Translations under genes and position numbers: made by a program
Source of the DNA: Bacteroidota bacterium
Lineage (GTDB): Bacteria; Bacteroidota; Rhodothermia; Rhodothermales; UBA10348
Reading direction: 5' to 3'
Assembly: GCA_022571255.1 (NCBI GenBank)
Contig: JACZYD010000005.1
Coordinates: forward strand, 1-53,321
Length of the DNA stretch: 53,321 nucleotides
Part shown: in pieces, positions 36,383 to 45,554 of the stretch
Position numbering within the stretch: the stretch's first letter is position 1
Layout: each line of letters opens with the position of its first letter
The notes under the pieces: model-generated
Told to the model about the DNA's origin: nothing
What the model saw: the letters and a program-made list of their open reading frames with translations, nothing else
Database searches by the model: none

Positions 36383-37222
36383 ATGCAACAGACGATTCTT
36401 GCCGTTCTCGCCCTTTTGACCGTCGCGAACTTCACGCTCAATCAGAATAGAAGCGTTGTTCGTACATACAGCGAACTGGTCGATGACGAACTCGAGGTCG
36501 CAGCCAGTGGCGTCGCCATGCACGTCCTGGAGTTGATCAGTAATCGATCATTCGACAGTCGTACGAGCCCCGCACAGGTTGAATCGGGGGGAATGGCGGT
36601 CGGTACAGCCAGTTATACCGTGGAAAGCGCCTTTGGATCACAGACCAATTGCGATCTCGACGAACCGTTCAAAGATACTATACCTTGCCTGGATATCGAT
36701 GACGCCGATATGGCTGACGACGAATGGCAGGACGTGCCTTTTCGCATGAGATATGGAAAGGAATTACCATTTGATGTCCAGGTTCAGGTCTATTACGTGG
36801 ACGCCGCGGATATGGACACCCCATTACCCTCCGGGCAAACAAGCAATCACAAGAAGGTGGTCGTAAAGGTTCGCAGTAAACACCACGTCAAGCAAAATCG
36901 CTACCCGAACGGCTTTGTGACGCTTGAGCGCGTGTTCTCTTACAACGAAACGCGGGCAGAAAATCGCCACCGGCAAAAAGTTGGAGACGTTGTTGTTGTG
37001 CCTGCTGATGATGACGACGATGGTGATGACGACGATGGTGATGACGACGATGGTGATGACGAACCCGTCGTTGACCCGGATCCAGATCCAGATCCTAACG
37101 AATTCGTTACCGTCTGCCACAGGAGAGTCCGATTCGGAAAGGTTCGGTGGGGAACAAGAACTATCCAACAGAAATATCTTGCCAGGCATATTGGTCACGG
37201 CGACACGCTGGGTGCCTGTTAA
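36383..37222 (+). CDS. Pilin-like anchored protein with Asp-rich linker and CH...HGDxxGxC tail
   Basis: 279 residues. The N-terminus MQQTILAVLALLTVANFTL is one hydrophobic helix running into an amphipathic one (RTYSELVDDELEVAASGVAM), as in minor pilins, but no prepilin peptidase site (G/A-F-xxxx-E) is present. The middle is a compact domain with Cys residues (TNCDLDE, IPCLDIDD). Residues about 207-240 are Asp-rich (three DDDDG units from a 15-nt repeat at 37010-37054, then PDPDPDP). The last ~35 residues, VTVCHRRVRFG ... HIGHGDTLGAC, match a Cys-His motif seen at the C-terminus of many secreted proteins in this phylum; its role is not known. It is the first of three consecutive pilin-like genes. 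Confidence 0.75.
   Translation: MQQTILAVLALLTVANFTLNQNRSVVRTYSELVDDELEVAASGVAMHVLELISNRSFDSRTSPAQVESGGMAVGTASYTVESAFGSQTNCDLDEPFKDTIPCLDIDDADMADDEWQDVPFRMRYGKELPFDVQVQVYYVDAADMDTPLPSGQTSNHKKVVVKVRSKHHVKQNRYPNGFVTLERVFSYNETRAENRHRQKVGDVVVVPADDDDDGDDDDGDDDDGDDEPVVDPDPDPDPNEFVTVCHRRVRFGKVRWGTRTIQQKYLARHIGHGDTLGAC
37010..37054 (+). repeat. 15-nt in-frame tandem repeat, three units
   Basis: GATGACGACGATGGT is repeated exactly at 37010, 37025 and 37040 and encodes DDDDG blocks, residues 210-224 of the first pilin-like protein. It forms an acidic, probably calcium-binding or disordered linker before the Cys-His tail. Confidence 0.95.
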
Positions 37223-37276
37223 AACCAAATCAGTTGATCCGGATCATCCCGAACTCACTATAAACACAAAGGCATT

Positions 37277-37894
37277 ATGTGGTTCATATTTGACAATATC
37301 AGAGCACAATTGATGGCCGGAGTCGTCATTTTCATGTTGCTGACGGCAATGACCAGGGTACGGGAAGCTTCCGTAGAACAACTCTCCATTTACTCGGCAA
37401 AAAGCCATGCATTGGATCTGGCCGATTGGCTCGAAAATGATATTTCCACTCTTGGTTCAAATTTCGACTCCACCATGGTTCGATTCCTTCTACCGACGAA
37501 GCTCGACGGAAACACAATAGAATTCACGTTTCTTCGCGATACGATCGGTGTCGCTCCTAACTTTGACCCCGTCCGCATCGAAACCAGGTATCAGTTGATT
37601 GACACGGATATGGTAGAACTGGAAGACTCGATGGTCCAGATGCACCAGATAGTCCGGTCGATCAGGATTCAGCAGGGAGCAGGATGGACACCGTGGCAAG
37701 AAGACGGCCGCAGTTCATCTAGAATGTCTTATTTCATGGTATCCCTGCTGGACGCGGTAGGGCAGGATGTGGGTAATGAAACGGAAACAGTATTTCTTAA
37801 AATGGACTTTTCATTAATACCACCCTTCCGCCAGGGAAAACAATATTTAAATCAGCTCAGCTGGGGTACAACCATTCGGCTGCGTCCGTATTAG
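37277..37894 (+). CDS. Pilin-like anchored protein (PilW-like layout)
   Basis: 205 residues. The N-terminus MWFIFDNIRAQLMAGVVIFM is a single hydrophobic helix, followed by a long helix (EQLSIYSAKSHALDLADWLE) and NDISTLGSNFD, then beta strands (EFTFLRDTIG, RIETRYQLI, FLKMDFSLIPP). The layout matches PilW/GspJ-like minor pilins: helix, then a globular beta domain beginning with a DI.xxGSN turn. No prepilin peptidase site is seen. It starts 54 bases after the first gene and 73 bases before the third. The family is not recognised by name. Confidence 0.75.
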   Translation: MWFIFDNIRAQLMAGVVIFMLLTAMTRVREASVEQLSIYSAKSHALDLADWLENDISTLGSNFDSTMVRFLLPTKLDGNTIEFTFLRDTIGVAPNFDPVRIETRYQLIDTDMVELEDSMVQMHQIVRSIRIQQGAGWTPWQEDGRSSSRMSYFMVSLLDAVGQDVGNETETVFLKMDFSLIPPFRQGKQYLNQLSWGTTIRLRPY

Positions 37895-37967
37895 ACTGTA
37901 CGATTTCGCACCTTTGTAACCTCTTTAATCTTAATAACTTCAACAATTCATACTTCAGGTACCAGTC

Positions 37968-39080
37968 ATGGGTAAAGGCCTACTTCTCATTGTTATAGGA
38001 GGGATCATGGCAGGATCTTCTCTTATGTTTCAAACCCAAAAAACGGCACTCGAAACCACAAAAGTGCAGACAGAATACCAGGAAACAGTTCTGGCGCGTG
38101 AGATCGCTCGCTCGGCATACAGTGTTGCATTCCGCAAAGCTCAGGCTGCCGGAAATAATCTCGATCTGGCGATCTCCAACGTTAACGGAACACTCCAGAG
38201 CGGCGAAGCCAATTTCGAAGGCGTAATGGCCGGTTCGTACCAGGGAGGTGCGTACGCGGTGCAGGCGTATACCCTCGATGGCCAGAACGTGGTGATTCGC
38301 TCCACCGGATATTTCGGAAACGGCGAGTTCACAATCAACGAGAATTATAACGTAAAGCTGCTGACCGTAACAAGTCACAGCAGGATTACTATCGATTTCC
38401 TTGAATCCATGGCCGGATACTGCTCTGCGGTGTTCATGCAGCGTTTCCTTCCCTACAAGGGTGAAAAGAAACCACCGATGTCAGGTAATTATGGTAACGC
38501 CGAGAAGAAAGGATATGCTCTTGGTAAAGCGCGGGTGAGCGACGACGAAAAATACTGGGTGATGCCTCCCGAGATGTTGCTTAATTCGGGACACAATCGA
38601 ACGGGTGCCGAACTCCGCGTGACACCTGACGATTTGAGTCTCGCCCCGGAAACCCGCATCAACTTTTTCATAGGCGTTGACAAAAACTGCAGCGAGGAAG
38701 GAATCTGGGAAGACGAATATAAAGCATCGCGCTACGACTATATCCACAACGCCCTGGAAGAAGACACGCAGAATATGCTGGACCTTCAGGAGGGTAAATA
38801 TGCCATGATCGAACAGAATAAGACTGACGATCAGCAGTGGCGCATTGCCTTTGAGGATCTGGAAGGCTTCTCAGACGCACAGCTTAACGACGTCAAAGCC
38901 AACAGTTACGGTGGAAACTGGAATGACGGCGATCAGACGTACGGTGGATCGGGCTGGACAGAAGAGGATGCCCTGGGTTATCACAAGCTGAAAGACTTCG
39001 GGAATAAACCTGACTTCAGCGACCAGGTCATTCAGGTTACGCTGACGCCGTGTGGCGGACCTTGCGCCCCTCCGGCATGA
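37968..39080 (+). CDS. Pilin-like anchored protein (PilX-like layout)
   Basis: 370 residues. The N-terminus MGKGLLLIVIGGIMAGSSLM is one hydrophobic helix, then QTQKTALETTKVQTEYQETV and LAREIARSAYSVAFRKAQAA form a long helix, as in PilX-type proteins. A beta-rich domain follows (GAYAVQAYTLDGQNVVIRST, KLLTVTSHSRITIDFLES), then an acidic, Asn-rich region (KNCSEEGIWEDEYKASRYDY) and a Cys-rich end (TLTPCGGPCAPPA). It is the largest of the three-gene cassette and ends at a strong terminator, marking the end of the unit. The exact function is unknown; a surface filament or adhesin complex is inferred. Confidence 0.75.
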   Translation: MGKGLLLIVIGGIMAGSSLMFQTQKTALETTKVQTEYQETVLAREIARSAYSVAFRKAQAAGNNLDLAISNVNGTLQSGEANFEGVMAGSYQGGAYAVQAYTLDGQNVVIRSTGYFGNGEFTINENYNVKLLTVTSHSRITIDFLESMAGYCSAVFMQRFLPYKGEKKPPMSGNYGNAEKKGYALGKARVSDDEKYWVMPPEMLLNSGHNRTGAELRVTPDDLSLAPETRINFFIGVDKNCSEEGIWEDEYKASRYDYIHNALEEDTQNMLDLQEGKYAMIEQNKTDDQQWRIAFEDLEGFSDAQLNDVKANSYGGNWNDGDQTYGGSGWTEEDALGYHKLKDFGNKPDFSDQVIQVTLTPCGGPCAPPA

Positions 39081-39112
39081 CCTTTCTCAAATAGCGAAAA
39101 CAGCAGGCCTTG

Positions 39113-39151
39113 GCGCCGGATCATCAATCTGATGATCCGGCGCTGTTTTTT
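39113..39151 (+). terminator. Rho-independent terminator after the pilin-like cassette
   Basis: A perfect 14-bp stem (39113-39126 with 39130-39143, GCGCCGGATCATCA) with a 3-nt loop is followed by TGTTTTTT. It lies between the third pilin-like gene and the SUI1 gene. Confidence 0.92.
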
Positions 39152-39215
39152 GTTGTCGTATCTTCAGATTCGGATTTCAGCAGCAATCACCCTGGTAAAG
39201 CGCTTTCAGAATAAC

Positions 39216-39473
39216 ATGTCCAGTTATCCCAACGATGGCATCGTCCGAATCGGACGCGAGACGAAGGGACGCAGAGGAAAAGGCGTCACCGTCATCACGG
39301 GCCTTCCCGGAAACACGAAAGCTCTCAAGAAAACGGCGAGCAAACTGAAAGCGCGGTGCGGCGTGGGAGGAACCGTGCGGGGTCGCACAATCGAGATACA
39401 GGGGGACCAGCGAGACCGACTTGTAAAAATGCTTACCGAGGACGGTTACACCGTTCGTAAATCCGGCGGATAA
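39216..39473 (+). CDS. SUI1/eIF1-family translation factor (YciH-like)
   Basis: 85 residues: VRIGRETKGRRGKGVTVITG followed by LPGNTKALKKTASKLKARCG, VGGTVRGRTIEIQGDQRD and LVKMLTEDGYTVRKSGG, the complete SUI1 fold. Bacterial YciH proteins bind the 30S subunit and affect start-site fidelity; their physiological role is debated. The ATG at 39216 was chosen because upstream codons overlap the terminator hairpin. Convergent with the leftward secreted protein gene. Confidence 0.93.
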   Translation: MSSYPNDGIVRIGRETKGRRGKGVTVITGLPGNTKALKKTASKLKARCGVGGTVRGRTIEIQGDQRDRLVKMLTEDGYTVRKSGG

Positions 39474-39525: not shown

Positions 39526-41289
39526 CTACTCGACCCGGACCACGGACCCGTCGATCTCCTTGACAAGATAAAATGCGCCGGCTCTCGGGACGTCAACCGT
39601 AATGTCGCTGTACGAAGGTATCGCAATCACCACCTCGCTTCGCGCCGCAACAGGCGCGTGGGCATAGACGAGCCACTCACGCGAGCCTTCGTCGCCTCGT
39701 TTGAGAGCCAGACTGAATACGGGAATCTGCGTGTACAGATCCCAGGGCCATGGCTCGTCCAGACTGGTGTCGAGAAGAAACCATCGCGGAATATCACGGT
39801 AGTTCTTCGGAATACCCACTTGGTACGGGTGTTTGTGGGCGCTGTTTGCCACGAGTTCGCCGAATCGCCAGAATGCAACGAGCGTTTCGTTATTCCAGAC
39901 ACGATCTACGGCGTACACCGTTTCCATCCAGTACGGCTTCACGGCCGCAAGCTGTGTTGCGTGACTTCGAAATTCGCGCACGACACGAGGCCGTAACAAC
40001 CACATTCCGAACTGCACCCAGCCGGCCACCCGCTCCGGCGGAAAATCTTGACCTTCAGCCATGTACTGAAGGGCCTTGGATTTTCTGATGTTTTTGCGTT
40101 CAAGCTGCTCGCGTTGCAATTGCGAGAGAGGTGTACTCGATAGATCGGCTATTTCAGAATCGGTGGTCGTTCCCAGGCCCTCTTTCCAGGCACCCACACT
40201 GTTTCCCTCCCAGGTCGACATCTCAAACCAGTGATCAGGATTCACACGTAATGCCTCGTCCTGCATATACACCCAATTCATGGATTCGATCTGTGTGGAG
40301 AACACCCAGTAGTCACGATTCTGATTCCAGTTGTGGGTATAATAGGACGGACTGCTTCCCTCCCAATAATACCAGCTGGGTGTCGTCCATTCGTCGGTAA
40401 TCAAGGAATACACTTTCCACTGACCCCAGCGACCAAAATGTGGTGGTCCGAATGCTCCGTACCCTACGAATCGGACATTCTCCTTCCACGCTGGCTCGAC
40501 CAATGCCTCACGCATCGCATCGAACATCACGTTGTAGCGCTCGATCCACCCCTCACCCATCACCCTGCGTTTGAATTCGCCTGTCCGCCCCTCACCGTAC
40601 AGATCCATGTACCGTTTGGATTTCTGCTCCAATGAACCATTTTTCGCCCAGCGCAATGAGGCCGGCTCGTTGTTTGAAATCCAGATGATAAGCGGGGGGT
40701 TCGGATACATCGCCTGGGCTCGTCTCATGCCATCCGTATTGACATAAACGCTCGCGGGGGCTTTCCACACTTCAATACTGCCAAACGGACTGAGTTGACG
40801 TCCCTTTGAACCGTCTGGTTTAATGACACCAGCCCAGAATTCATCCGGACCGGTTCTGAACTGTTTCGATACCAGTAAATTGGGCCACTGTGTGCCACGC
40901 ATTGATATGGGGAGGTTCAGCCTGGCAAAGAATCTGATCAGGCGATCCTGGTAGCTTTTTGCCCGACCGCGCGGCCACGCCATCCAGGGCAGGATGTGAT
41001 GGCCGTCTTGGATCAGTCCAATCTGGTGATCGGGTCCGAACGTACCGCGAACCGTACCGACATTCCAGTGGCTGGCCAGCGGGAGGGGTCTGCCGGCCGG
41101 ACCGCGCGGCGGCAGAATGGCTTCGCGCGTAATTTCTTCTGAGACACGAACAGCGGCTTCGGTCGGGACGTCCCGGCCTGGGTTCTGAGCGAAAGCGGTG
41201 GTTACGGCAGAGAAAACATCACTGAAAAGAACAAGACAGACCGCCCCTGTAATTACGCGCCACATCCGCCACCATTTTCTGAAGATCAC
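39526..41289 (-). CDS. Exported glycosidase-like protein of unknown family (NEP motif)
   Basis: 587 residues. Signal peptide WRVITGAVCLVLFSDVFSAV...AFAQ after a basic start. The middle is rich in aromatic residues, as in carbohydrate-active enzymes (WNVGTVRGTFG, PSWYYWEGSSPSYYTHNWNQ). PLIIWISNNEPAS carries the Asn-Glu-Pro of clan-A (TIM-barrel) glycoside hydrolases, where Glu is the acid/base. PDHWFEMSTWEGNSVG is a candidate nucleophile strand. The C-terminus (YSDITVDVP, AFYLVKEIDGSVVRV) looks like a beta-sandwich domain. No family could be named. The GTG start overlaps the actin stop by four bases (GTGA), so translation is coupled to it. Confidence 0.7.
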   Translation of the reverse strand: MIFRKWWRMWRVITGAVCLVLFSDVFSAVTTAFAQNPGRDVPTEAAVRVSEEITREAILPPRGPAGRPLPLASHWNVGTVRGTFGPDHQIGLIQDGHHILPWMAWPRGRAKSYQDRLIRFFARLNLPISMRGTQWPNLLVSKQFRTGPDEFWAGVIKPDGSKGRQLSPFGSIEVWKAPASVYVNTDGMRRAQAMYPNPPLIIWISNNEPASLRWAKNGSLEQKSKRYMDLYGEGRTGEFKRRVMGEGWIERYNVMFDAMREALVEPAWKENVRFVGYGAFGPPHFGRWGQWKVYSLITDEWTTPSWYYWEGSSPSYYTHNWNQNRDYWVFSTQIESMNWVYMQDEALRVNPDHWFEMSTWEGNSVGAWKEGLGTTTDSEIADLSSTPLSQLQREQLERKNIRKSKALQYMAEGQDFPPERVAGWVQFGMWLLRPRVVREFRSHATQLAAVKPYWMETVYAVDRVWNNETLVAFWRFGELVANSAHKHPYQVGIPKNYRDIPRWFLLDTSLDEPWPWDLYTQIPVFSLALKRGDEGSREWLVYAHAPVAARSEVVIAIPSYSDITVDVPRAGAFYLVKEIDGSVVRVE

Positions 41290-42308
41290 ATATCCTCCCA
41301 GTATTCTTCCGGCATATCCATGGCCAGTGCAAGCGCACCTTCCGCGCCGGCAAACAGCGGGTCGTCGACCACGGTGATGTTGAAGTCGCCGTACTCCTTG
41401 AGCGCCTCACGCAGCGCTTCATCAAGCCCGGCAATTTGACTTCCCCCGCCTGCGAGATATACGTTGTCTTTAACAGTATCCTGAAAATCTGGCTCATAAA
41501 CAGAAATCAGATCAATCGCGGTCTCGGCAATGGCCGGGACGATGCCTTCGCAAACGTACTGCATTTCACGTGTGATATCGATCGGCGTGGTCACACCGTT
41601 GATCGGCACTTTTACCTTCACGCGTTTTCGGGACTGCCCGACGAAGCCATAATCTTCTTTGAAGCCCCGGACCATGGTTTCACTGAAAGAAGCGTCAGGG
41701 TATTTTTCCCGAAGCCGACCCAGAAGTTGCTGATCAATAAAATCTCCTCCGGTGGTCAGTGTTCGCTGATCATCCTCACCCGGCATCGTTCCATGCAGGA
41801 TACAGAAATCAACAGTGCCGGCCCCGATATCGATAAAAAGAGCATTGTTCAACACTCCCACTCCGTAGGCGACTGCAAACGGTTCGGAAACCACCATCAG
41901 GCAGTCTGCATACTCCTTGACTGCATCTCGAATTGCTTCTTTATTGACACGCAATGCTTCCGCTGGAACTCCAACCGCCGCATAAATTTCCTGTGCCGAA
42001 CCCGGGTCGGCAAATTCGATGAGATGATGGACCAGTTCACGAACGGCTTCTTCGTCCCGAATCGTTCCATCGCGAATAACGCCGTTTTCAAGTGGCCTCG
42101 CAAGGTGGACAGACAGTCGGTTTTCCAATGCTTCCTCTCCAAAAAGAATGGACTTGCCAAGCATTTTTTTTGCCACAAAGTCTTTCGGCCATCCAACATA
42201 ACTCTGTTCCCATGCTCGTTTTCCATTGCTTGCGACAACGGCACTGCGGGATGTACCCAGATCGATTCCTATGTGGAGAATATTATTATTCTTCTTCTTC
42301 GGCGGCAT
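41286..42308 (-). CDS. MamK-like bacterial actin
   Basis: 340 residues with the actin/Hsp70 ATPase fold: phosphate 1 LHIGIDLGTSRSAVV, phosphate 2 FIDIGAGTVDFC (Asp160), and adenosine motif VYLAGGGSQIAGL (about 284-296). The arrangement resembles MamK of magnetosomes more than MreB or ParM: YVGWPKDFVAKKMLG, FGEEALENRLSVHLARPLEN, EIYAAVGVPAEALRVNKEAI, LMVVSEPFAVAYGVG and a terminal LALAMDMPEEYWEDM all have MamK counterparts as recalled. No other magnetosome gene is present. It overlaps the amidase gene before it by 23 bases and the secreted protein gene after it by four, so the three are one coupled unit. Confidence 0.87.
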   Translation of the reverse strand: MPPKKKNNNILHIGIDLGTSRSAVVASNGKRAWEQSYVGWPKDFVAKKMLGKSILFGEEALENRLSVHLARPLENGVIRDGTIRDEEAVRELVHHLIEFADPGSAQEIYAAVGVPAEALRVNKEAIRDAVKEYADCLMVVSEPFAVAYGVGVLNNALFIDIGAGTVDFCILHGTMPGEDDQRTLTTGGDFIDQQLLGRLREKYPDASFSETMVRGFKEDYGFVGQSRKRVKVKVPINGVTTPIDITREMQYVCEGIVPAIAETAIDLISVYEPDFQDTVKDNVYLAGGGSQIAGLDEALREALKEYGDFNITVVDDPLFAGAEGALALAMDMPEEYWEDM

Positions 42309-43395
42309 TTCCTGTTGTGCTGTTGTGTGATACTTCGTTTTGAGTCAGATCGGTCAGGTAATTTACGATCCCTTCTTCCAAAAACATGGCAATTTGTTCG
42401 CGATATTCGGGAGTCCTCAGACGAGCCTCGCTCTCGAGATTACTCACCACCCCGATTTCAGCCAGAATTCCGGGGGCATCTGCACCCACCAGAACTACAA
42501 ATGGAGCTGTTTTTACTCCCCAGTTGCTTACATCCTTGTTCCGTTCACTTGCATTCCCGAAAAGGCTTCGCTGAACGTAACGCGCAATTTTTCTGGATTC
42601 CTGAAGTTTTATTCGATCACCCATTCGCTGAATCATATGATTGAATTCAGCCACTGAATAATCCGAATTCTGATTCTCTACTTCAGCGAGTCGTAAGGCG
42701 AACCGATCGGCTTCCGGTCCGAAATAATATGTTTCCAGCGGGACCACACGATCATCCGGGATGGAATTGACATGAATTGAGACAAAAAGATCGGCATTCC
42801 GAGAGTTAGAAAACTCGGCCCGTCCACGAAGAGCGATCGTAGAATCTGTCGACCGGGTCATTAAAACCCTGTAGCCATACCCGTGCGCAAGTCTTCTTCG
42901 AAGACGTTCTGCCACGTCAAGAGTGATGTCTTTTTCTCGGGCTCCGGTAATTCCAATGGCTCCTGGATCCGTACCACCATGACCTGCATCAATGACGATC
43001 GTTTTTACTCCGAGGTCAAAAAGTGCGCGCAGTGAAGATGTACCATCTCCGATCGCCGCATACTCACTGGCCGTCGGAATGTCGCCCTCGTGAACCATCA
43101 AGTCTGGTGCAACCGACTGATCTGGCAGCAGAATCGCCGTCCGGGATAAAAACGTTGTCGCTTCGGTGACCAGAATCTGTGGAGCAGAATCACGAAACAC
43201 GTAGTCCGCCGCCAGCAGCAAAGTTACCAAAAGGACAAAAAGACCACTTACCCCGGTCACATAAGGGTGAGCTGAATACGAACTGCCACGTGGTTGCCGA
43301 TCGCGTATGCGAACATTGTCTTCGTAGATTTCCCGCAGGATATGTGCCCTGTCGGTATCAGGTCTACGATCATTCACGCTTTGTCTATCGGCCAC
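42286..43395 (-). CDS. Membrane-anchored N-acetylmuramoyl-L-alanine amidase (Amidase_3)
   Basis: 369 residues. A cytoplasmic basic start of about 45 residues leads into one helix (GVSGLFVLLVTLLLAADYVF), so the enzyme faces the periplasm. The Amidase_3 domain (about 130-350) has zinc and catalytic motifs TIVIDAGHGGTDPGAIG, REKDITLDVAERL, LFVSIHVNS and ILAEIGVVSN (catalytic Glu). It cuts the amide bond between MurNAc and the peptide stem. The ~60 residues between helix and domain are unassigned. The tail is acidic (GNAAEEEE). The GTG start lies 38 bases after the EF-G-like gene, and it overlaps the actin gene by 23 bases. Confidence 0.92.
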   Translation of the reverse strand: MADRQSVNDRRPDTDRAHILREIYEDNVRIRDRQPRGSSYSAHPYVTGVSGLFVLLVTLLLAADYVFRDSAPQILVTEATTFLSRTAILLPDQSVAPDLMVHEGDIPTASEYAAIGDGTSSLRALFDLGVKTIVIDAGHGGTDPGAIGITGAREKDITLDVAERLRRRLAHGYGYRVLMTRSTDSTIALRGRAEFSNSRNADLFVSIHVNSIPDDRVVPLETYYFGPEADRFALRLAEVENQNSDYSVAEFNHMIQRMGDRIKLQESRKIARYVQRSLFGNASERNKDVSNWGVKTAPFVVLVGADAPGILAEIGVVSNLESEARLRTPEYREQIAMFLEEGIVNYLTDLTQNEVSHNSTTGNAAEEEE

Positions 43396-43433: not shown

Positions 43434-45554
43434 TCAGACCTCCGCCAGTTCTTCCGCCTCTGAGATCACTTTCTCCTGCACGTTCCGCGGCATCGCCTCA
43501 TAGCGGTCAAATGTGGAACGATGCAACCCCCTTCCCTGGGTCAATGATCGAACCACCGTTGAATACCGAAAAAGCTCCGCTTCTGGCACATCGGCAACGA
43601 TTTTTTGAAATATTCCTTCCGATTCAATGCCCTGGATCCGAGCCCGGCGCGTATTCATATCCCCCATGATTTCTCCTGTGTAGGATTCCGGACACAATAC
43701 TTCTACGCGATGAATGGGCTCCAGAATAACGGGTACTGCAGATCTGAAAGCGTCCCGATAACACATTCGCGCGGCTGACTTGAAAGCTGCGTCGTTCGAA
43801 TCCACCGGATGCATACCCCCGTCGTGAATCACGACGCGGACATCGCCAACCGGATAACCCGCTACCGGTCCCTTCTGGCTGGCTTCAAGGACTCCCTTTC
43901 GGATGGCACCAAAGAACCGGCGCATGTCAATAACACCCCCTACAACAGCATTTACGAATTCAATGGTTGATCCCCAGGGAGTTTTCTCTTCGTGAACTCC
44001 GCGTACGTTGATATCAGCTGGAGCATTGAACTCGCCGGTTAAGGGTTCGATGAGCATGGAAATATCGGCGAACTGCCCCGCACCACCCGTCTGTTTCTTG
44101 TGACGATATTTCGAGCGAGCCTGTGCCTGGACGGTCTCCCGGTAAGCAATTTTAGGACGTGAAAAAACGATATCAACACCGAATCGGTGTTTCAGTCTGT
44201 ATTTGGCAATGGCCAGATGCATTTCGCCCTGCCCACCCAGCACCAACTGGCTCAAATGCTGGTCGTGTAAAGCATGCAGCGATGGATCCTCATGGACAAG
44301 CTGGTGCAGACCCAGTGCAAGTTTATCTTCATCGCCATCGTTCTCGGTCGTTACCGCCGAACTGTACCGGGGAGCCGGGAATTCGATCCGTTCCATGACG
44401 ACCTTGCTTCCTTTGCGGTGAAGCGTATCGTTGGTGTGCGTGTTTTTCAATTTAACCAGCGCACCAATATCTCCGGCGGCCAATTTGCTGACCGGATCAC
44501 GATCGTGGCCGTTGATCGCAAAAAGCTGTCCCAGGCGTTCCATATCTCCCGTGTGAGCGTTAATCAGATCAGTACCTCCTTCGAGTGTACCCGAATACAC
44601 ACGCACGAATGAATAGTCACCCACATGGTGCTCCGCCATCGTGCGATACACAAGCGCAACGGGCTCGGCGGAAGGATCAGGAGCAATCGTCGCACCATCC
44701 ATCGTCGCAGGTTCCGGAACATCGCTTGGACTCGGACACACATTGCCTACGAACTCCATCAATCGGGAAACACCGATATTGGATGTAGCACTGGTGAGAA
44801 AGATCGGGTAAAGCTGCCTTTTAACCATAGCCTCACGCAAGCCGCCCCGCATTTCTTCCTCAGACAAATTGCCCTTTTCAAAATAAAGCTCCATGAGGCT
44901 CTCATCATTCTCTGCGATATTTTCAACGAGCTCGTTATGCAGGTCTTCCGCCTCCGCCAGGAATTCTTCAGAAATATCTGAATAGCTCGATTTTCCATGA
45001 TCGTCAAACTTGATTTCTTTCATCAGCAGGACATCAATCACGGATCTCGACCCTTCACCCGCAGGGAGCTGGACTACAGTAGCGCCCCTACCAAATCGTT
45101 CCTTGATCTGAGCAATACTCGTCCTGAAATCAGCTTTTGGCTTATCCATGTGATTGATCACGAACATGACAGGTGTCCCGGCCTCTTCAGCCGCCCGCCA
45201 TCCCAGTTCCGTCCCTACCTGTACGCCGTCGACCGCATTGATGACGAATATTGCAGTGTTTACCACGTGCAGAGATGCCGCCACCTCACCCACAAAGTCA
45301 GGATAACCCGGTGTGTCAATTACGTTGATTTTGATTCCGCCATATTCGACATGGACAAGCGAAGCAAAAACCGACATTTCTCGTTCATGTTCGCTGGAGT
45401 GATAATCACTGACAGTGGTACCTTCCTCAATGCTCCCCATTCTCTGCAGCACTCCCGTGGCATAGAGCATTGCTTCCGAAAGCATGGTTTTCCCGCTTCC
45501 CTGGTGTCCTACCAGCGCCACGTTGCGAATATTTCCTGACTCAAATACCTTCAT
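43434..45554 (-). CDS. EF-G-like GTPase (FusA2-type)
   Basis: 706 residues with all five EF-G domains. G1 is ALVGHQGSGKT, G3 is DTPGYPDFVGEV, and G4 reads NHMDKPKAD where EF-G has NKMD. A following GGQGEMHLAIAKYRLKHRFG (domain III), the domain IV segment KTGGAGQFADISMLIEPL type, and domain V RRARIQGIE complete it. The NHMD and the shorter G domain fit the EF-G2/FusA2 group, whose role in ribosome recycling or stress is not settled, rather than the main EF-G. It is the first gene of the leftward run that continues into the amidase-actin cassette. Confidence 0.9.
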   Translation of the reverse strand: MKVFESGNIRNVALVGHQGSGKTMLSEAMLYATGVLQRMGSIEEGTTVSDYHSSEHEREMSVFASLVHVEYGGIKINVIDTPGYPDFVGEVAASLHVVNTAIFVINAVDGVQVGTELGWRAAEEAGTPVMFVINHMDKPKADFRTSIAQIKERFGRGATVVQLPAGEGSRSVIDVLLMKEIKFDDHGKSSYSDISEEFLAEAEDLHNELVENIAENDESLMELYFEKGNLSEEEMRGGLREAMVKRQLYPIFLTSATSNIGVSRLMEFVGNVCPSPSDVPEPATMDGATIAPDPSAEPVALVYRTMAEHHVGDYSFVRVYSGTLEGGTDLINAHTGDMERLGQLFAINGHDRDPVSKLAAGDIGALVKLKNTHTNDTLHRKGSKVVMERIEFPAPRYSSAVTTENDGDEDKLALGLHQLVHEDPSLHALHDQHLSQLVLGGQGEMHLAIAKYRLKHRFGVDIVFSRPKIAYRETVQAQARSKYRHKKQTGGAGQFADISMLIEPLTGEFNAPADINVRGVHEEKTPWGSTIEFVNAVVGGVIDMRRFFGAIRKGVLEASQKGPVAGYPVGDVRVVIHDGGMHPVDSNDAAFKSAARMCYRDAFRSAVPVILEPIHRVEVLCPESYTGEIMGDMNTRRARIQGIESEGIFQKIVADVPEAELFRYSTVVRSLTQGRGLHRSTFDRYEAMPRNVQEKVISEAEELAEV

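Follow-up and report, generated by a model that had tools for sequence, protein, structure and literature searches.

A MamK-family actin paired with a tailed, membrane-anchored amidase in three bacterial phyla: a candidate module for placing cell-wall cuts

The window analysed here, the whole 53,321-nucleotide stretch of contig JACZYD010000005.1 from a Bacteroidota bacterium of the order Rhodothermales (family UBA10348), encodes on its minus strand a bitopic Amidase_3 enzyme and, directly downstream, an actin-like ATPase of the MamK family; we find that the two genes are a genuine two-gene module. As a first-pass annotation of this DNA had described, three leftward genes overlap at the locus. 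The open reading frames (ORFs) of the amidase and the actin share 23 bases; the stop of the actin and the start of a 587-residue ORF lie together in GTGA, which implies translational coupling of the latter two in the window. The module and the parts of its amidase discussed below are as follows.

42286-43395, minus strand: bitopic N-acetylmuramoyl-L-alanine amidase (Amidase_3), GTG start, 369 residues; core component
41286-42308, minus strand: MamK-family actin-like ATPase, ATG start, 340 residues; core component
43288-43353, minus strand: motif RAHILREIYEDNVRIRDRQ in the cytoplasmic amidase tail (about residues 15-36), profile match E=1.5e-9; predicted actin-binding helix
43198-43263, minus strand: single transmembrane helix of the amidase, about residues 45-66, a hydrophobic stretch in all full-length orthologues and a helix at 45-66 in the structural model

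MamK-family actins were collected from three phyla, namely from the window's order, from the Desulfobacterota (345 genomes) and from the Nitrospirota (198 genomes), many of the surveyed genomes being metagenome-assembled. In the window's phylum a MamK-family actin is found in 17 of 396 sampled genomes, all 17 of them in the window's order; most of these genomes also encode ordinary MreB-like proteins. Immediately upstream of every actin at least 54% identical to that of the window (40 loci/genomes in the three phyla) lies, in the same orientation, a gene for an Amidase_3 protein, the amidase stop lying 19-137 nt from the codon of the actin DLGTS motif and the ORFs overlapping in many loci, while no upstream amidase accompanies any collected MamK-family actin of 36-48% identity. 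Besides the Nitrospirota and the Desulfobacterota, the linked clade is found in a single order of the window's phylum, and in complete loci amidase and actin are never apart. The gene-neighbourhood survey that the first-pass annotation had proposed therefore upholds the amidase-actin pair of its cassette; the adjacency of the 587-residue ORF is confined to this genome.

The distribution of the enzyme follows that of the actin. Counted at E<1e-60, the tailed amidase is present among 60 relatives in exactly the 20 actin-bearing genomes (20/20) and among the 198 Nitrospirota in exactly the 13 genomes with a linked actin (13/13), and it is found in none of the 10 Nitrospirota that have only the other MamK class. 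Separate, lower-scoring Amidase_3 proteins are encoded in nearly all genomes of both sets, that of the window included, so the tailed amidase is an extra one. The surroundings of the pair vary: in the window's family it follows EF-G, in a different family of the order it has thymidylate synthase (thyA) and DHFR genes around it, and several Nitrospirota have ScpA ahead of it; the sole constant across these contexts is the pair itself. Distances between amidase domains correlate with those between actins (Mantel r=0.85, p=0.001; the comparison covers these two genes only), and r is 0.85 and 0.84 when the two larger groups are taken separately; a jointly inherited unit would be expected to behave in this way. 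The pairing is far beyond chance. In the window the module sits tight behind EF-G and ahead of the unrelated 587-residue gene, so that close spacing alone is weak evidence, and one could suppose that the genes are adjacent by accident, or share expression with housekeeping genes, and that their products have no physical link. We regard this as highly improbable, since the pair is kept in differing contexts over three phyla and since the tail motif of the amidase, described below, tracks the actin. One desulfobacterial pair (L131, in G617) groups with Nitrospirota sequence in both the amidase and the actin tree; either it was transferred as a unit or the contig was mis-binned.

The more distant MamK class, 36-48% identical to the actin of the window, has other associations. 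At a sampled Nitrospirota locus of this class the neighbouring genes match the models for MamB/MamM, MamP and MamQ, and the same gene order recurs in the remaining second-class Nitrospirota loci, which makes this class largely magnetosomal. Another MamK-like clade of the Desulfobacterota, about 48% identical and without an amidase (L056, L129 and L130), encodes its actins directly after a 117-residue ORF, for which no family match was found, and a coiled-coil protein of 651-663 residues, behind ABC-transporter genes; it is possibly another MamK system outside magnetosomes.

The actin had been assigned from its motifs to the MamK type rather than to MreB or ParM, and both profile scores and phylogeny agree. 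It scores 404.5 bits against the NCBIfam MamK model NF040964 (cut-off 400), which places it in the MamK subfamily, several linked orthologues falling slightly under that cut-off (371-398 bits). Its scores stay below the cut-offs of the NCBIfam MreB model (84 bits, cut-off 293) and the BeeR model NF053558 (221 bits, cut-off 530), and no ParM model matched it in the Pfam and NCBIfam scans. Just about ten residues precede the actin fold, the criterion for BeeR being a disordered N-terminal domain. The top PDB match is MamK (5ljw, E=1.5e-82), and the ATPase motifs DLGTS, SEPF, DIGAGT and AGGG are kept in the linked actins, which probably polymerise into filaments, the mark of MamK behaviour being ATP-dependent double filaments. 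An IQ-TREE phylogeny with BeeR and MreB included unites the 40 amidase-linked actins in a single clade within the MamK branch (ultrafast bootstrap 98, SH-aLRT 100), split from MreB at 100/100, and BeeR falls outside the MamK branch. The clade is nested among magnetosome-type MamKs with weak support, and a topology of two sister clades, the amidase-linked actins and the remaining MamKs, is not rejected (p-AU 0.33), so that these data do not decide the direction of MamK evolution. Several actin residues (W33, W40, F44, G81, E86, L119 and I126-V130) are invariant within the linked clade and differ outside it; we take them to lie mainly in domain I, from our reading of the MamK fold, and this domain would be the first candidate area for a face that binds the amidase tail. 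MamK has no IC domain.

A magnetosome function for the linked actins finds no support in their surroundings. There are no magnetosome genes beside the actin of the window, as had been remarked from the sequence (the rest of the genome was not searched for mam genes), and the mam-like clusters in Nitrospirota loci do not adjoin linked actins.

The predicted single-pass Amidase_3 enzyme was confirmed as such: the protein matches PF01520 with E=4.4e-43 (147.8 bits, cut-off 27) and has one transmembrane helix. An alignment of 37 full-length paired amidases (three further ones end at contig ends) shows a common architecture of a short cytoplasmic N-terminus, a transmembrane helix, a variable linker and a catalytic domain in which the zinc-binding and catalytic residues H, E, H and E are invariant. 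Each of the 37 carries in its cytoplasmic tail a motif close to R-x-x-I-L-R-G-V-Y-E-[ED]-N-[LR]-R-I, whose mean conservation (3.0 bits) is on a level with that of the catalytic domain (2.9 bits), the linker before the membrane and the transmembrane helix standing at 1.47 and 1.62 bits. N27 of the tail is invariant and L20, V/I23 and Y24 are almost so, a spacing that would match one face of a helix; a model built from three sequences (pLDDT 47.6), which we used solely for the positions of the tail and transmembrane helices, places these with low confidence at residues 12-32 and 45-66. When whole genomes (60 relatives, 297 Desulfobacterota and 198 Nitrospirota) were searched in six frames with a profile of the tail, strong matches were limited to the paired amidases and to contig-edge pieces in three genomes (G004, G005 and G030), the first of which is 70% complete and has no match to the linked actin. 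One paired amidase (L047, in G032) carries the motif twice in tandem, as ILRAVYEEN and VLRGVYETN, as expected of a docking motif. Because the motif is strongly conserved, lies across the membrane from the active site and is present only alongside the actin, it is most simply read as an actin docking site, and the tail probably binds the actin.

Tail binding could also serve a different kind of actin. In PilM-PilN and FtsA-FtsN a bitopic partner is held by an actin-fold protein through a tail of about 30 residues (PMC7613929), and the actin described here might likewise be a monomeric or oligomeric ATP-dependent adaptor that binds the tail and gates the amidase allosterically, for example for the insertion of an envelope machine. 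We consider such an adaptor quite unlikely, since the actin sits inside the MamK subfamily with its ATPase motifs kept, and MamK and its relative BeeR are filaments with solved structures (PMC11929497). Moreover, it is with the IC domain, the one mentioned above as missing from MamK, that FtsA and PilM bind their tails (PMC7613929).

A further component appears in the Nitrospirota. In 10 of the 13 loci of this phylum the gene right after the actin encodes a member of one protein family with a transmembrane helix; the six members that were scanned against Pfam or inspected in full all end in a C-terminal SPOR domain, and all but one begin with a receiver domain. The protein at L154:7292-8521 and its Nitrospirota relatives, which combine a receiver domain, a transmembrane helix and a SPOR domain, look like a two-component-controlled, FtsN-like type. 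SPOR domains bind glycan strands that amidases have denuded and that are enriched at septa (PMC6895207), and in Sinorhizobium a SPOR protein together with AmiC marks the new pole (PMC7822825). The SPOR partner, the septal denuded glycan and the Sinorhizobium case are the main reason why we prefer a role in division or at the pole.

We propose, as the fairly probable reading, that the actin filament positions or licenses the tailed amidase as a two-protein wall-cutting module, most likely for division or daughter separation. The proposal builds on what was observed: the genes are paired and co-occur, the linked actins are monophyletic, the tail is conserved, the catalytic and ATPase motifs are intact, and most Nitrospirota loci add a SPOR partner. 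The MamK-family protein would polymerise on the cytoplasmic side of the inner membrane, and the filament would bind the short amphipathic helix in the cytoplasmic tail of the amidase. This binding would concentrate, position or license the periplasmic enzyme, which would strip stem peptides from the peptidoglycan there, most likely at the division site or the new pole, for the separation of daughter cells. In the Nitrospirota a third protein, with its receiver in the cytoplasm, one transmembrane helix and a periplasmic SPOR domain, could read the product of the cut. The first-pass annotation had already suggested that the actin positions the amidase, and the conserved tail motif now points to how it may do so; a septal or polar role of the module seems likely.

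Several points weigh against this proposal. The window's order and 3 of the 13 Nitrospirota loci lack the SPOR partner, no division gene consistently adjoins the pair within the window's order, the model of the amidase is poor (pLDDT 47.6), and nothing in the sequence gives a cue to the place of the filament in the cell. Even within a single family the clade has a patchy distribution, which indicates that the system is dispensable, and the module may be accessory to division or may serve cell curvature instead. In the latter case the filament would run along one side of the cell and the amidase would loosen the wall asymmetrically and so set curvature, by comparison with bactofilin and LmdC in Rhodospirillum, where the bactofilin brings a bitopic M23 hydrolase to the inner cell curve via its cytoplasmic tail (PMC10945521). 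Such a function in cell shape would suit an accessory, patchy system and has a parallel in Mad28, a MamK relative that reportedly localises by cell curvature (PMC12713370); we nevertheless hold it to be unlikely, since the Nitrospirota SPOR partner indicates septal or polar denuded glycan and since amidases of this type are known mostly from septal splitting (PMC6895207).

Two neighbouring genes lie outside the module.

39526-41289, minus strand: 587-residue ORF, GTG start, predicted exported, no family match; neighbour outside the conserved module
43434-45554, minus strand: EF-G-like translation factor with Pfam EF-G domains, 38 nt upstream of the amidase

In the window's family the EF-G-like gene precedes the pair wherever contigs reach; in other families and phyla it is absent from that position. 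The 587-residue ORF had been taken for a third member of a shared system and for an exported glycosidase-like protein with a clan-A NEP motif. It does have a hydrophobic N-terminus and the string 'NNEP', but its only homologue in 114 genomes of the order (44% identity, in G036), which is encoded at an unrelated locus, reads NNEA, so the motif is not conserved. No Pfam, NCBIfam or PDB match was found for it, and its single-sequence model (pLDDT 33.6) is unusable; the glycosidase identity and membership of glycoside hydrolase clan A are therefore not borne out. The gene adjoins the actin in the window's genome only, family relatives carrying holB or other genes there, and with a lone homologue elsewhere in its genome we reject it as a member of the module. 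In most family relatives holB closely follows the actin; here it is separated from the module by three consecutive ORFs on the plus strand (36383-39080; 279, 205 and 370 residues) that carry hydrophobic stretches at the N-terminus, match no Pfam family and are perhaps prepilin-like. On the plus strand, a strong hairpin of 16 pairs with a T run after it (39111-39145) overlaps the start of an ORF with a SUI1 domain (39132-39473). Promoter and terminator scans gave site numbers no higher than in shuffled sequence.

The conserved tail and the pairing suggest an internal scaffold, not described before, from which the cell would learn where its wall is to be cut. To our knowledge, no other filament of the actin family is known to serve a peptidoglycan hydrolase as its dedicated partner; this one would be the first, and its putative docking motif is explicit and can be mutated. 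MamK-family proteins would thereby gain a function in cells beyond the magnetosome, a point of direct relevance to the origin of the magnetosome actin, and as a compact two-gene system the module makes the placement of wall cuts by an internal filament testable in vitro and in vivo. A more doubtful proposal is that actins of the MamK type go back to an ancient wall-remodelling cytoskeleton whose first client was a bitopic amidase docked by a short helical tail, and that magnetosome MamK is a branch co-opted for holding organelles. The novelty claimed in the first-pass annotation held up, in that our literature searches turned up no description of a MamK-family or actin-like protein combined with an amidase.

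Among known systems, the enzyme described here resembles the division amidases of the AmiC type in its Amidase_3 domain, which is as long as that of AmiC and keeps the catalytic residues. AmiA, AmiB and AmiC are soluble periplasmic enzymes, whereas this amidase is anchored in the membrane, has a conserved tail in the cytoplasm and is accompanied in the genome by another Amidase_3 protein. Magnetosome MamK (NF040964), whose family aligns the magnetic particles of magnetotactic bacteria, belongs to the same subfamily as the actin of the window by profile score and tree and has the same conserved ATPase motifs; the actin of the window differs in having no adjacent magnetosome genes, in belonging to a type always paired with an amidase and in forming a separate clade. 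BeeR of the Verrucomicrobiota, a three-stranded tube, is likewise a MamK relative in non-magnetotactic bacteria, but it falls outside the MamK branch and no amidase is mentioned for it (PMC11929497). In the bactofilin system of BacA and the M23 endopeptidase LmdC, a cytoplasmic polymer recruits a bitopic wall hydrolase via a short conserved tail (PMC10945521), as is proposed here; there, however, the polymer is a nucleotide-free bactofilin, the enzyme is of another class, and the tail motif is a beta-hairpin in place of the predicted helix. It is only the conserved tail and the strict co-occurrence that would place the present pair among such cytoskeleton-recruited hydrolases. FtsA-FtsN and PilM-PilN share the binding of a bitopic protein's tail by an actin-fold protein (PMC7613929), and FtsN, like the Nitrospirota partner, ends in a SPOR domain; their partners are not hydrolases, and FtsA and PilM carry an IC domain and are distant relatives of the window's actin. 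The module would thus resemble a union of the bactofilin-LmdC idea and the tail-binding idea of FtsA and PilM, put into effect with a MamK-family actin and an amidase.

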